NCBI GenBank assembly: GCA_012719645.1 | Contig: JAAXZX010000043.1 | Coordinates: forward strand, 62,001-126,000 | DNA: 64,000 nt | DNA from: Clostridiaceae bacterium | GTDB taxonomy: Bacteria > Bacillota > Clostridia > DSM-8532 | Direction of reading: 5' to 3' | Shown here: one piece after another, positions 12,996-20,136 of the stretch | How positions within the stretch are numbered: position 1 is the first letter of the stretch | Layout: the number at the start of each line of letters is the position of its first letter | Made by a program: the position numbers and the translations under genes | Notes under the pieces: model-generated | Database searches by the model: none | Told to the model about the DNA's origin: nothing | Seen by the model: the letters and a program-made list of their open reading frames with translations, nothing else

Positions 12996-13976
12996 TTAAA
13001 ACTTGATAAAGGCCTCCAAAAGCCTTGCAGCGTTCTCCACGTCCTTTATGTCAACGATTTCCGAGGCGCTGTGGATGAATCTCGTGGGAATTGACACGCC
13101 TCCCGAAGGTATTCCGCCGGCGGTGATGTGTATGCTCCCGGCATCGGTGCCGCCCTTGTCCACGACCTCGAACTGGAAGGGAATACCGTTCTCCCTGGCG
13201 CAATCTACAAGTCTTTCCCTTATTCTCGGATGGGCTATGACACTGTTGTCCTTTACCTTTATCGCAGGTCCTTCCCCCAGCGATACAGCCCCGGGTTTGC
13301 TCTTCGGCGTGTCACCGGTCCTTGTAACGTCAATGGCAATGGCCAGGTCGGGCCTGATGGCGTAAGCGGCGGTGCGGGCGCCCCTTAAGCCCACTTCCTC
13401 CTGGGTGGTAAAGACATAATATATCTCATTATCTGTTGCAGGACATCTCCTGGCAAGCTCAGCCAGTATCGCGCAGCCCACCCTGTCATCCAGGGCCTTG
13501 GAAATAATAAGGCCGTTCTGCTCAACCGGCCGGCCCTCAAAGACGGCCATGTCGCCTATCTCAACCAGCTCCCTTGCCTGTTCCCGCGTTTTGGCCCCTA
13601 TGTCGATGTACATCTTGTCGATTTTGGCATCCTTCATGCTCTCAATGCTCTCTTCATACCAGACAACACCGGTCAGGCCATTCTCAAAGACAACCCGCTG
13701 GCCGAGGGAGATAAGGGGCAAAACGCCGCCCACGGTTCCGAACCGCAGGAACCCTTTATCATCGATCGTGGTGATAATCAGGCCGATCTCATCCATGTGG
13801 GCGGCCAGCATTATCTTTTTGCCGGAGCCCTTCTTTACAGCTATCAGGTTCCCCATGGCATCCGAGCTGATCTCGTCCACTTTATCCTTTATCATTTGGG
13901 TGACAACCTCCGCCACCCGGTTTTCACGGCCCGACGGGCCAAAAGCATTCACCAGCATGCTTATCGTGTCAAACAT
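12996..13976 (-). CDS. M42-family metallo-aminopeptidase (third of three)
   Basis: A 326-residue M42 peptidase (TET aminopeptidase/CelM type). Dinuclear metal ligands are in place: H-x-D in LAAHMDEIGL, the bridging Asp in ALDDRVG, the catalytic Glu pair in TTQEEVGLRGA, Asp in AIAIDVT and the final His in RFIHSASE. Family members trim N-terminal residues from peptides inside large cytosolic tetrahedral complexes. The start at 13976 overlaps the upstream M42 stop by eight bases and has AGGAGGGG nine bases before it. It is the last gene of a three-gene M42 unit, closest in sequence to the middle gene. Confidence 0.9.
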   Translation of the reverse strand: MFDTISMLVNAFGPSGRENRVAEVVTQMIKDKVDEISSDAMGNLIAVKKGSGKKIMLAAHMDEIGLIITTIDDKGFLRFGTVGGVLPLISLGQRVVFENGLTGVVWYEESIESMKDAKIDKMYIDIGAKTREQARELVEIGDMAVFEGRPVEQNGLIISKALDDRVGCAILAELARRCPATDNEIYYVFTTQEEVGLRGARTAAYAIRPDLAIAIDVTRTGDTPKSKPGAVSLGEGPAIKVKDNSVIAHPRIRERLVDCARENGIPFQFEVVDKGGTDAGSIHITAGGIPSGGVSIPTRFIHSASEIVDIKDVENAARLLEAFIKF

Positions 13977-15108
13977 CGCTTTCCCCTCCTGATTGATTCT
14001 GGTCGAACCCGTATGCGCCTGCATTCCCGTCCTCCGAAAACCAGCCTGCCAGGCCTGCAAGAGTCCCCTCAGCCAGTTTCAGGACATTAAAGAAATCCCT
14101 CTTGTCCATAATCGACACGGGGGTATGGATATACCTGCAGGGCACCGATATCGTGCATACCTTTACGCCCCTGCCGCTCACCTGAATTCTTCCGGCATCG
14201 GTGCCGCCCGATATGGTCCGTTTCACCTGCCACGGGATACCGAGCCTTTCAGCGGTATGGGTTATGAACCTGAACAGGCCCCTGTCCGAGATCACCGACC
14301 GGTCCATGACGGTCAGGGCCGGGCCATCGCCAAGCCGGGTGCTCATCATATGCTCATCGGTCCCGGTAAGGTCATAGCATGTGGTCCCTTCCAGGATGAT
14401 GGCCGCGTCAGGTTCAACCGCATAGGACGCTGCTTTGGCTCCCTTAAGGCCTATCTCTTCCTGGACAGTGAAGCAGCCGTAAACATCAAAGGGATACCTG
14501 TCCTTAAGAAGCTCGGCAAGTAATGCGCAACCCACCCGGTTATCCAGTGCCTTGGCCATCAGCTTTTGGTCCCCGAATTCCACAGGATCATAGTCAAACG
14601 CAGCCGTATCGCCTACCGATACGCTCGCCTCGGCCTGCTCCCTGTCCTTTGCGCCTATATCGATGGTCAGCCCGCTCTTTTTAACCGTGCTCTTCCTCTC
14701 GGAATCATCCTGCAGATGTATGGGCTTGTACCCTATTACACCGGGTACCCTGTCCTTGCCTATCCTGACCCTCTTCCCTACCAGGACGCGGGTTTCGATA
14801 CCGCCCACGGCCTTGAACTTCAAAAGGCCGTTATCGTTGATCCCGGTTATAAGCAACCCGACCTCATCCATATGGGCAGCCAGCATGACCTTTTTGCCCA
14901 GTCCGGTTCCCTTCCTGAAAGCGATCAGGTTTCCGATATTGTCTACATGCCAGGAATCCGCCCGGTCTTTTATAAGTTCGATGATGAAGTCCCTCACGGG
15001 CTTTTCATCGCCTGAAACCCCATCCAGCATGGTAAGCTTCTTCAGTGTATCGATAAGGCTTTCGGGATATTCCCCGGAGGCCGTACTTAAGACACCATGT
15101 TCAATCAT
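13969..15108 (-). CDS. M42-family metallo-aminopeptidase (second of three)
   Basis: A 379-residue M42 peptidase, longer than its neighbours because of extra residues at both ends. Metal and catalytic residues are visible in LAAHMDEVGLL, KALDNRVGCAL, TVQEEIGLKGA and CRYIHTPVS. The ATG at 15108 overlaps the stop of the upstream gene by eight bases and AGGAGGG lies about eight bases before it, so translation is probably coupled. Like the other two it should act on cytosolic peptides; substrate preference cannot be told from sequence. Confidence 0.9.
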   Translation of the reverse strand: MIEHGVLSTASGEYPESLIDTLKKLTMLDGVSGDEKPVRDFIIELIKDRADSWHVDNIGNLIAFRKGTGLGKKVMLAAHMDEVGLLITGINDNGLLKFKAVGGIETRVLVGKRVRIGKDRVPGVIGYKPIHLQDDSERKSTVKKSGLTIDIGAKDREQAEASVSVGDTAAFDYDPVEFGDQKLMAKALDNRVGCALLAELLKDRYPFDVYGCFTVQEEIGLKGAKAASYAVEPDAAIILEGTTCYDLTGTDEHMMSTRLGDGPALTVMDRSVISDRGLFRFITHTAERLGIPWQVKRTISGGTDAGRIQVSGRGVKVCTISVPCRYIHTPVSIMDKRDFFNVLKLAEGTLAGLAGWFSEDGNAGAYGFDQNQSGGESDV

Positions 15109-16153
15109 TTGAATCGCCCTCCTGATCCAATTCATCCCTGAAAGCGATATAGCGGGCTGCCAGACGGGCCGCTGCCCCGATATCGTCAAGGCTGACCATC
15201 TCCACCGCGGTATGCATATACTTTGCGGGAATGGACAGCAGCAACGTAGGGATGCCTTCCAATGCCGAAGAATAAACCGCCGCTTCGGTTCCCGTATCCT
15301 TCTCCTCGGCATCGATCTGGTATGGAATCTTCTCCTGCCTGGCAAGCTTTATGCACGCCCGTGTATGCTTCCGGCTCAATATTGGGCCTACTGCTATGGC
15401 AACCCCTTTACCCAGCGGGAAGCTCTCATCGCTGGGCGCATCCGGCATATCCCCGTGGCAGACGTCTATTGCTATTGCCAGGTCAGGTTTAAGGTTCCAG
15501 GATGTCATAAACGCTCCCACCAGGCCGGATTCCTCCTGGACGGTGGCTACCGCATAAACATTGTCCCGGTGCCGGATCCGTTCCAGTTCCTTCAGCATCT
15601 CCACCAGGGCGGCCACGCTGCTCCGGTTGTCCATGCTCCTTCCGGCCATCCTGTTGTTTTTCAGTTCAAGAACAGGGAAGCGGAAGGATACCACATCGCC
15701 CACGGATACAAGTTCCCGGGCCTGCTCCGCGCCGTATCCTATATCAATGAGCATATCCTCCAGCTTCACAGGCTTGTCGGAATCCTCGGGCGGGATCAGG
15801 TGGGGCGGCTTTGAGCCTATTACGCCATGGAGATCCCTCCTGCCATGTACAGTCACTTCCATGGCGGCCAGGGTTTTGGGATCAACTCCCCCCATATTGG
15901 TGAACCTGAGAAAACCGTTTTCATCAATGCCCGTGACAATCAGCCCAATCTGATCGTAATGGGCGCTAACAAGGACATTGCGCGGGTTCTCCCCCTGGCC
16001 CTTCCTGAGGCCTATCACGTTATAAAAGGCATCCACCCTGACTTCGTCGCAATAGTCCGACAGTATGCCCGATATTGCCTGAGCAGCCGCGTCTTCCCTT
16101 CCGATCACGGCATTTATGCTGCAAAGCTTTTTCAACAAGTCGCGGCATTCCAT
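15101..16153 (-). CDS. M42-family metallo-aminopeptidase (first of three)
   Basis: A 350-residue M42 peptidase with ligands in VSAHYDQIGLI, SMDNRSSVAAL, TVQEESGLVGAF, AIDVCHGD and KYMHTAVE. It is the most divergent of the three (Tyr instead of Met after the first His, SSV instead of VGC after the bridging Asp), which suggests a different substrate range. The ATG at 16153 follows GAGGTG; a GTG three codons upstream lies within that site. It heads the M42 unit. The terminator of ileS lies upstream, so the trio probably has its own promoter between 16154 and 16330, which I could not fix. Confidence 0.9.
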   Translation of the reverse strand: MECRDLLKKLCSINAVIGREDAAAQAISGILSDYCDEVRVDAFYNVIGLRKGQGENPRNVLVSAHYDQIGLIVTGIDENGFLRFTNMGGVDPKTLAAMEVTVHGRRDLHGVIGSKPPHLIPPEDSDKPVKLEDMLIDIGYGAEQARELVSVGDVVSFRFPVLELKNNRMAGRSMDNRSSVAALVEMLKELERIRHRDNVYAVATVQEESGLVGAFMTSWNLKPDLAIAIDVCHGDMPDAPSDESFPLGKGVAIAVGPILSRKHTRACIKLARQEKIPYQIDAEEKDTGTEAAVYSSALEGIPTLLLSIPAKYMHTAVEMVSLDDIGAAARLAARYIAFRDELDQEGDSND

Positions 16154-16329
16154 TGAATACACCTCGATTCAGTCCTTTTCATCCCATGGATGCAGGATCT
16201 TTTCATTCCGAAAACTCTCGCCATTCTCAAATATTATCCGCACAAGCGGCGGGCTTTATCAGTATTGAATATCATACCATAAAGCTGGCAATGGACGCCA
16301 TCCCCGCCGCAGGAACCATTTTATGCGCA

Positions 16330-19216: not shown

Positions 19217-19484
19217 TAAAAAAGCCCTTCGTCCCATGGGACGAAAGGCTCTGCTTTCCGCGGTACCACCCAAATTGCCCCATAACCCGCCATGGATTAC
19301 AGGACCACTTGTCTGAGGATAACGGCCTCATTCCGGCTCGCCTTATTCGGCCCTCCGGGCCTTTCAGGCTGCGGCTCGCGGTTGATTTTCAGATTCCGTA
19401 TCCTGCGGGGCTCCCACCTTTCCCCCCACTCTCTGAAAGGCCTCAGGAATCCTACTCGTACCGGTCATCGCTTTTTGCAATCTT
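19217..19484 (-). promoter_or_regulatory. T-box riboswitch leader of ileS (specifier AUC)
   Basis: On the minus strand the leader ends with the T-box sequence GGGTGGTACCGCGG (about 19272-19259), which pairs with the acceptor end of uncharged tRNA. It is followed by a terminator stem (19250-19224, AGCCTTTCGTCCC with its near-complement) and a T-run. Stem I near the 5' end shows AGTA opposite GAA, the usual specifier-loop S-turn. The triplet placed as specifier is ATC (19386-19384) followed by A, an isoleucine codon that fits the gene downstream. Uncharged tRNA-Ile should favour the antiterminator. Confidence 0.9.
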
Positions 19485-19519: not shown

Positions 19520-19740
19520 CACCGGCCGGGGGTTGCGCCCCAGGCCCTTTAAGGGTTCCGGCTGAGATGAAATTTATCGTCGGCCGATGGGGACCGTCCC
19601 GGAGGATTGCTCCTGTTTCCATTATCGGCCTGCATTTTAGGTTTTATGCGCCATTTGCCAATTTTAGCGCCATTGGGTTAGTTCAAATAATTGCGGGCGG
19701 AGCGAATTCCTGTCCTGTCATTACGAGTTCAGCAAAGCCG
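19520..19740. other. intergenic stretch without a recognisable gene
   Basis: No reading frame with a ribosome site or family resemblance was seen. A GC-rich patch at 19523-19565 can form local hairpins. ATGGGGACCGTCCCGG at 19587-19602 resembles, with several mismatches, one arm of the palindromic repeat family found elsewhere in the window. No convincing promoter for the structured segment that follows was found. Confidence 0.5.
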
Positions 19741-20055
19741 GGCGCGGTAATCCCTGCATAACGCAAAACGTTGAAGGTTGAAGCTCTGTAATTGTATGCA
19801 CAAGACGTGCTGTTTCAGTCTCGAGTGACTCCGCAGGAGCAGATGAAGTTGTATGCGAAATGCGCCGATCGAGCGGGAAAAAACAACCGGATGTTGTTTT
19901 TAGCCGGCAGTCGCACGGATGCGACGTTGCCGGCGGCCCTGCGAGATCAAGCATGAGCATGTACAACTTCCTGCGACGAGGACTGAAGGAGAGACTGAAC
20001 AGCACGGCTATAACACGTAATTCTTTGAGAAACGCAGCAGAGATTGCCGCGTACC
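19741..20055 (+). ncRNA. candidate large structured non-coding RNA
   Basis: The segment folds into nested helices. P1: 19743-19752 with 20042-20051 (10 bp with one U-G), extended by 19754-19757 with 20037-20040. P2: 19806-19822 with 19991-20006 (16 bp, one bulged U). P4: 19845-19853 with 19962-19970 (9 bp). Hairpins: 19829-19839 (CTCC/GGAG), P5 19880-19900 (8 bp, loop CGGAU) and P6 19903-19934 (7 + 6 bp, loop CGGA). The U-G pair in P1 and a possible U-G next to P4 become A-C mismatches on the other strand, so the plus strand is favoured. It does not carry the hallmarks of tmRNA, RNase P RNA, SRP RNA or 6S RNA. A raiA-type or other large Clostridial RNA is possible but unchecked. Open frames across it are short and break the helices into no recognisable protein. 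Confidence 0.7.
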
Positions 20056-20078
20056 TCTTGTACTGACAACTTAGTCAA

Positions 20079-20100
20079 AATGCGGCCTTTAAGCCGCATT
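20079..20100 (-). terminator. terminator-like stem after telA
   Basis: AATGCGGC (20079-20086) pairs perfectly with GCCGCATT (20093-20100) around a 6-base loop; TTTTG follows on the minus strand. It could also close transcription coming from the structured RNA on the plus strand, though without a T-run there. Confidence 0.5.
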
Positions 20101-20136
20101 GGTTATATCCCGAACCTTATATGTCTCTTCTGATAC

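Follow-up and report, generated by a model that had tools for sequence, protein, structure and literature searches.

A probably mobile nested palindromic repeat with a TwoAYGGAY-like tip in a clostridial telA-ileS spacer

INTRODUCTION

The window analyzed here, a stretch of 64,000 nucleotides, is part of contig C137 in a 2.6-Mb draft genome from the Clostridiaceae. In its spacer between telA and ileS, about 315 bases (19741-20055) fold into a large nested structure, which a first-pass annotation described as a large RNA. The locus raises the question of whether such a fold represents one structured RNA or something assembled from other parts. TwoAYGGAY, the Rfam family that proved to be nearest to it, is listed there as a structured RNA of unknown function.

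RESULTS

Fold and layers of the element

The minimum free energy (MFE) of the folded stretch was -133.9 kcal/mol, versus -94.6 +/- 5.0 kcal/mol in 100 dinucleotide shuffles (z = -7.8; 0/100 as good), which bore out the earlier claim of a fold beyond chance. The helices described in the first-pass annotation were present in the MFE fold, namely, a 14-bp closing helix (19743-19757 with 20037-20051), a 16-bp helix (19806-19822 with 19991-20006; CGTGCTGTTTCAGTCTC / GAGACTGAACAGCACG), a 9-bp inner helix (19845-19853 with 19962-19970; AAGTTGTAT / GTACAACTT), and the terminal hairpins, among them 19879-19901 and 19903-19934. The minus strand folded nearly as well as the plus strand (MFE, -123.3; z = -7.0). 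A coding reading of the stretch was rejected since the frame is not conserved among homologues; in the apical part these show single-base insertions and deletions yet retain base pairs, in keeping with the original view that no plausible gene is present. The element as a whole (19716-20068) was found to consist of three nested layers: on the outside a pair of dispersed palindromes in inverted orientation (TGTCATTGCGAG...), in the middle a stem (ACGTGCTGTTCAG...), and at the tip an apex. Its features are as follows.

19716..19753, plus strand: outer layer, left; dispersed palindrome TGTCATTRCGAG...GCGCGGTAATC (from the sequence; identical ends in other copies)
20040..20068, plus strand: outer layer, right; degenerate inverted copy of the left palindrome, GAGATTGCCGCG...TGACA (from the sequence, the fold, and other copies)
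19804..20009, plus strand: middle layer; stem AGACGTGCTGTTTCAGTCTC / GAGACTGAACAGCACGGCT, arms 19806-19822 and 19991-20006 (from the fold and copies)
19829..19984, plus strand: apex; TwoAYGGAY-like module (Rfam model RF01731, 36.9 bits; gathering score, 43)
19879..19901, plus strand: GGA hairpin 1; AAAAACAAC CGGAT GTTGTTTTT, GGA at 19889-19891 (from pair changes in homologues)
19903..19934, plus strand: GGA hairpin 2; GCCGGCA GTCGCA CGGA TGCGAC GT TGCCGGC, GGA at 19917-19919 (from pair changes and loop count)

The GGA motifs of the two hairpins are 28 nt apart, and the loop of hairpin 2, CACGGATG, fits CANGGANG. Our own model, R1, puts the apex module at 19839-19971 by construction.

The element is antisense to both telA and ileS and lies 264 bases upstream of the ileS T-box leader (19234-19477, minus strand; RF00230, 112.8 bits), and the ileS promoter (19519-19491, minus strand) is a perfect TTGACA-17-TATAAT match. 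No plus-strand promoter or terminator match was found near the window copy. Elsewhere in the window, another dispersed palindromic motif (ACCAGNGGAACCGTCCCCCTGGT) occurs in four copies (5884, 27980, 28807, and 32091), and three consecutive genes at 12996-16162 (minus strand) resemble M42-type aminopeptidases, as judged from their open reading frames.

Copies in the same genome

A search with positions 19690-20110 recovered 7 core copies in the same genome at 84 to 94% identity, plus derivatives; full and partial copies of the nested palindromic element together number more than a dozen there (copy numbers rest on searches, and those given below for multiple genomes are lower bounds, about 7 candidates having been scored per genome). 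A near full-length second copy is located on C128 (84%), five further copies match only the core, from window position 19803 on (89 to 94%; one truncated), and most core copies do not share the part that forms the closing helix. That helix is the right outer copy paired with the left outer copy, and the left outer palindrome, of 38 bases, also matches alone elsewhere in this genome, e.g., at C52:7094-7132 and C128:11476-11512. The middle stem is common to full, apex-less, and swapped-apex copies: it stands without an apex at C86 and C137:18915, and in five copies (L017, L018, L019, L020, and L021) the stem was kept and the apex swapped for an unrelated AG-rich palindrome (AGAGGTTGGAAGTTAGA...). 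The swapped apices suggest modular exchange. A palindrome similar to AGAGGTTGGAAGTTAGA was also seen outside the stem, in L015.

Because partial, apex-less, and swapped-apex copies exist and the outer palindrome occurs alone, what looked like one structure consists of several dispersed palindromes stacked on one another, and the long-range fold has an ordinary explanation in a dispersed palindromic repeat. The single closed hierarchy originally proposed had to be given up, since its closing helix consists of two inverted copies of a repeat with an existence of its own. Palindromes inserted or exchanged at the tips of other palindromes can build a fold that seems to exceed chance, with no need for selection on a single large RNA. 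The copies are intergenic and of unbiased orientation (36/70 sense to the upstream gene), with 6 between divergent genes and 16 between convergent genes, as counted with a crude ORF caller.

Presence and absence in relatives

In four congeners with a telA orthologue, the flanking sequence is shared on either side, the ileS leader as well as telA. The element was absent from the orthologous locus in three of them (G001, G002, and G004), and apparently only its right half was present in the fourth (G003). As far as sequence comparison goes, the orthologous loci show presence/absence variation, at a resolution short of the exact junction. Besides the genome analyzed here, 7 of 99 related genomes contained the element, all of the same family and usually with several copies. 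A 20-base pattern from the conserved 3' part had 39 matching stretches in 84,980 species genomes, 38 of them from five clostridial MAGs of the window's family. The match in Anaerolineales (L122) lies within a frame resembling an HD-domain protein and was taken as chance. Viral contigs searched with the conserved 20-mer gave no match.

The outer shell differs between genera. Terminal inverted repeats are TGTCATTGCGAG.../...CTCGCAATGACA in genus g1 and GGGCTGTCTCAAAA.../...TTTTGAGACAGCCC in genus g2, where elements with GGGCTGTCTCAAAA ends are of a uniform 254 to 259 bp and short apex-less forms measure 134 to 144 bp; thus, the same core sits in different shells. Inspection of g1 and g2 elements, including the window's outer shell, revealed no target-site duplication, and no transposase for the window's own outer shell was found. 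In two species, the element lies just past the 3' end of apparently the same thioredoxin-like gene (L097 in G030 and L117 in G023), reflecting either an old common insertion or a favored site.

Covariation and strand

RNAalifold applied to 24 homologues gave 46 pairs, 17 of which were changed on both sides. With hairpin 2 in its proper register, there were 47 pairs, with 97% of cells standard and 21/47 changed on both sides; 1,000 shuffles reached at most 88% standard cells and slid partners 33 to 41%, controls that leave shared descent in. Most of the covariation falls in GGA hairpins 1 and 2 and the helix below them, with both-sided changes in 5/9 pairs of hairpin 1 and in 5/6 distal pairs of hairpin 2 across the 24 homologues. 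Of the covariation that the first-pass annotation had asked for, that of the apical helices was found; the outer and middle helices (P1 and P2) are nearly invariant, so that none was measurable there and the lower stems hold no covariation information. As for the large RNA itself, the nested, noncoding character and the apical compensatory changes were confirmed and uniqueness was lost, the element being multi-copy and absent from this site in relatives.

The strand could not be read from wobble pairs. It had been claimed that these are tolerated only on the plus strand; G-U pairs in the MFE folds of 39 elements numbered 86 on the plus strand versus 81 on the minus strand, and among the 24 homologues G-U occurred in 12 pair columns versus A-C in 9. 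The plus strand gave the more stable fold in 31/39 elements. Since the wobble-pair strand test is symmetric, it is no proof of RNA; the data show a conserved foldback without showing action at the RNA level.

Relation to TwoAYGGAY

At Rfam gathering scores, no family matched the folded stretch. This agreed with the earlier statement that it is not tmRNA, RNase P, SRP, or 6S, and it spoke against the suggested raiA-type RNA as well; the element is not of that type, the nearest family being TwoAYGGAY (RF01731). The RF01731 model aligned to the window copy on the plus strand over positions 1 to 168 of 168 with 36.9 bits, below the gathering score of 43; the seven core copies scored 28.1 to 37.7 bits, all below 43. 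These seven were exactly the RF01731 matches in the genome, with no others (E = 2e-4 to 0.03 for the whole genome). Reciprocally, model R1 of the window's family recovered 6/30 RF01731 loci (E <= 3e-4) at the right place and on the right strand. GGA is retained in both loops in most homologues. In the window, the loop of hairpin 2 (ACGGAT) fits AYGGAY and that of hairpin 1 (CCGGAT) does not; most loops in this family read CCNGGANG or CCGGA, without the A that ANGGA requires, and a fit to CANGGANG is confined to hairpin 2 of genus g1. Since the apex module falls short of the curated score and departs from one loop consensus, we regard it, on its sequence, as a divergent relative of TwoAYGGAY and not as a certified member.

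TwoAYGGAY elsewhere in the class

RF01731 matches were found in 37/391 genomes of the class, many with several copies. The complete genome G068 contains about 17 near-complete TwoAYGGAY copies and a dozen partial ones, with ends CTGYRATTCGTAATAT. Direct flanking repeats scoring >=7 (7 to 11 bp, perfect) were present at 14/21 end pairs versus 1% of mismatched flanks, which is read as the signature of transposition. Module-less copies in G068 also have target duplications (L223, and L228 and L231 by reading), and L220 and L223 have identical breakpoints, indicating that the module is dispensable for mobility or sometimes lost through it. With duplications also at module-less copies, the module looks like cargo. 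Among 61 matches in G068, the genome searched for an autonomous partner in place of the window's own, no IS-length end pairs were found; orphan MITEs are common. Four TwoAYGGAY MITEs in G068 (L210, L211, L212, and L216) are about 397 or 598 bp long through an extra hairpin in the stem, in either orientation, i.e., nesting occurs in a distant clostridium too. A literature search for TwoAYGGAY with mobile elements, or for this palindrome, yielded nothing relevant among papers available without subscription.

Co-occurrence with CsrA

Among wide RF01731 members, 28/32 detected GGA hairpins had CANGGANG loops, with none on the reverse strand; CANGGANG is the CsrA/RsmE hexaloop consensus. CsrA was detected in 32/37 RF01731-positive genomes versus 93/354 others (Fisher P = 7e-13), a comparison uncorrected for lineage, genome size, and motility, and CsrA presence tracks motility and lineage. 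All 12 RF01731-positive families have CsrA, out of 87 families, a total estimated from labels. CsrA was not detected in 5/37 positive genomes (G021, G203, G243, G280, and G297), nor was it in G025 and G030, two genomes of the window's family that contain the element; four of these seven genomes are <90% complete, and G021, G297, and G025 are 94 to 98% complete. TwoAYGGAY was proposed earlier, on motif grounds, as a clostridial CsrA-binding sRNA (PMC4333381). The co-occurrence reported here is new and gives that proposal independent, though confounded, support. In the Campylobacter jejuni flaA leader, CsrA is titrated by a pair of GGA hexaloops with a spacing of 21 nt, the optimum being 18 (PMC4894983).

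DISCUSSION

The sequences show that the element is repeated and nested, is present or absent at this site in different relatives, has undergone compensatory changes at its tip, and is related to TwoAYGGAY, and they show the target duplications of G068; we infer that the window's shell is mobile, that the module is cargo, and that it docks CsrA. We consider it very probable that the window element is a mobile, nested repeat and that its tip is TwoAYGGAY-like. The best explanation overall, which we consider probable though less firmly so, is a MITE-like nested repeat whose TwoAYGGAY cargo docks CsrA. Positions 19716-20068 would then be one copy of a multi-copy nested palindromic MITE-like repeat in the telA-ileS spacer, putatively spread in trans by a transposase, and the tip (19829-19984, plus strand) would be a divergent TwoAYGGAY module with two GGA-loop hairpins, 28 nt apart, on a long stem. 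The module would be cargo, and its plus-strand transcript may offer a two-site dock for a CsrA dimer, so that docked CsrA would be titrated, as by the two-hexaloop flaA leader in Campylobacter (PMC4894983). Docking by this apex module, proposed from the loop consensus and the co-occurrence, is put forward tentatively, at somewhat less than an even chance. Several results speak against the favored reading: the RF01731 scores in this genome under the threshold, the window's own shell with neither a target duplication nor a transposase found, the many loops of its family without the A, the carriers with no CsrA detected, the tracking of CsrA with motility and lineage, the unbiased orientation of copies, and the lack of a plus-strand promoter match near the window copy.

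We considered the possibility that the element is a selfish hairpin of DNA, with the whole stack, including the tip, kept foldable at the DNA level and having no RNA role; it could be maintained through recognition as a cruciform or as a single-strand hairpin, or through template switching that corrects the palindrome. Wobble pairs are few, with near-equal G-U and A-C exceptions, both strands fold well, copies show no orientation bias, and G068 has target duplications, all of which such a hairpin would explain, and we regard it as a serious contender that falls somewhat short of an even chance. It does not explain why even highly divergent elements retain the GGA loops on just one of the two strands, and a role in transposition would leave retention of the module unexplained because module-less copies (L223, L228, and L231) also duplicated their targets. 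The strong CsrA association and the more stable plus-strand fold in 31/39 elements likewise speak against it.

Readings tied to this one locus fared far worse. The very strong fold and the compensatory changes would suit an independent gene for a trans-acting RNA, belonging to a large new class and specific to this locus, which is nevertheless highly improbable given the multiple copies with apex-less derivatives, the empty orthologous sites in congeners, and a plus strand without a promoter or terminator match. Equally hard to credit is a role in cis, with the element serving ileS or telA as a leader, a terminator, or a processing site: its place between the two genes, 264 bases upstream of the T-box leader, invites that reading, but the element is antisense to both genes, ileS has its own perfect promoter and T-box downstream of it, other copies adjoin unrelated genes in either orientation, and congeners lack it.

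For the favored explanation, a mobile repeat with a CsrA-docking tip, the point of interest is the tip and its bearing on TwoAYGGAY. The results indicate that TwoAYGGAY is usually a dispersed multi-copy element and that at least one genome carries it on a transposing MITE; this affects both experiments and annotation of such motifs. More generally, and here we are doubtful, in Clostridia that have CsrA, TwoAYGGAY might travel as cargo on several MITE-like elements unrelated to one another, forming scattered mobile docks whose transposition would tune CsrA titration, with this genome holding a divergent lineage in a nested repeat.

Several known systems resemble the element in part. With bacterial MITEs it shares short length, multiple copies, inverted ends, lack of ORFs, intergenic location, and polymorphism between relatives, as well as target duplications, seen in the G068 relative; it differs in containing a covarying two-hairpin module, and its shell lacked a detected target duplication and an autonomous partner (the partner search being that of G068). 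Like TwoAYGGAY (RF01731, clan CL00106), it has two adjacent GGA-loop hairpins joined by AG and a long closing stem on the same strand, whereas the window's family scores 28 to 38 bits (<43), most of its loops are CCNGGANG and not AYGGAY, and the module is embedded in two further repeat layers. CsrB/RsmZ-type CsrA sponges and the flaA leader have GGA-loop hairpins like CANGGANG, as here, where the sites are 28 nt apart; in this case, however, the putative docks are dispersed mobile copies and not one sRNA gene. Finally, REP/BIME and other interspersed palindromic repeats are also nested palindromes in spacers that are rarer between divergent than between convergent genes, but the window's element, at about 350 bp, is built of three nested layers and has a defined apical module.
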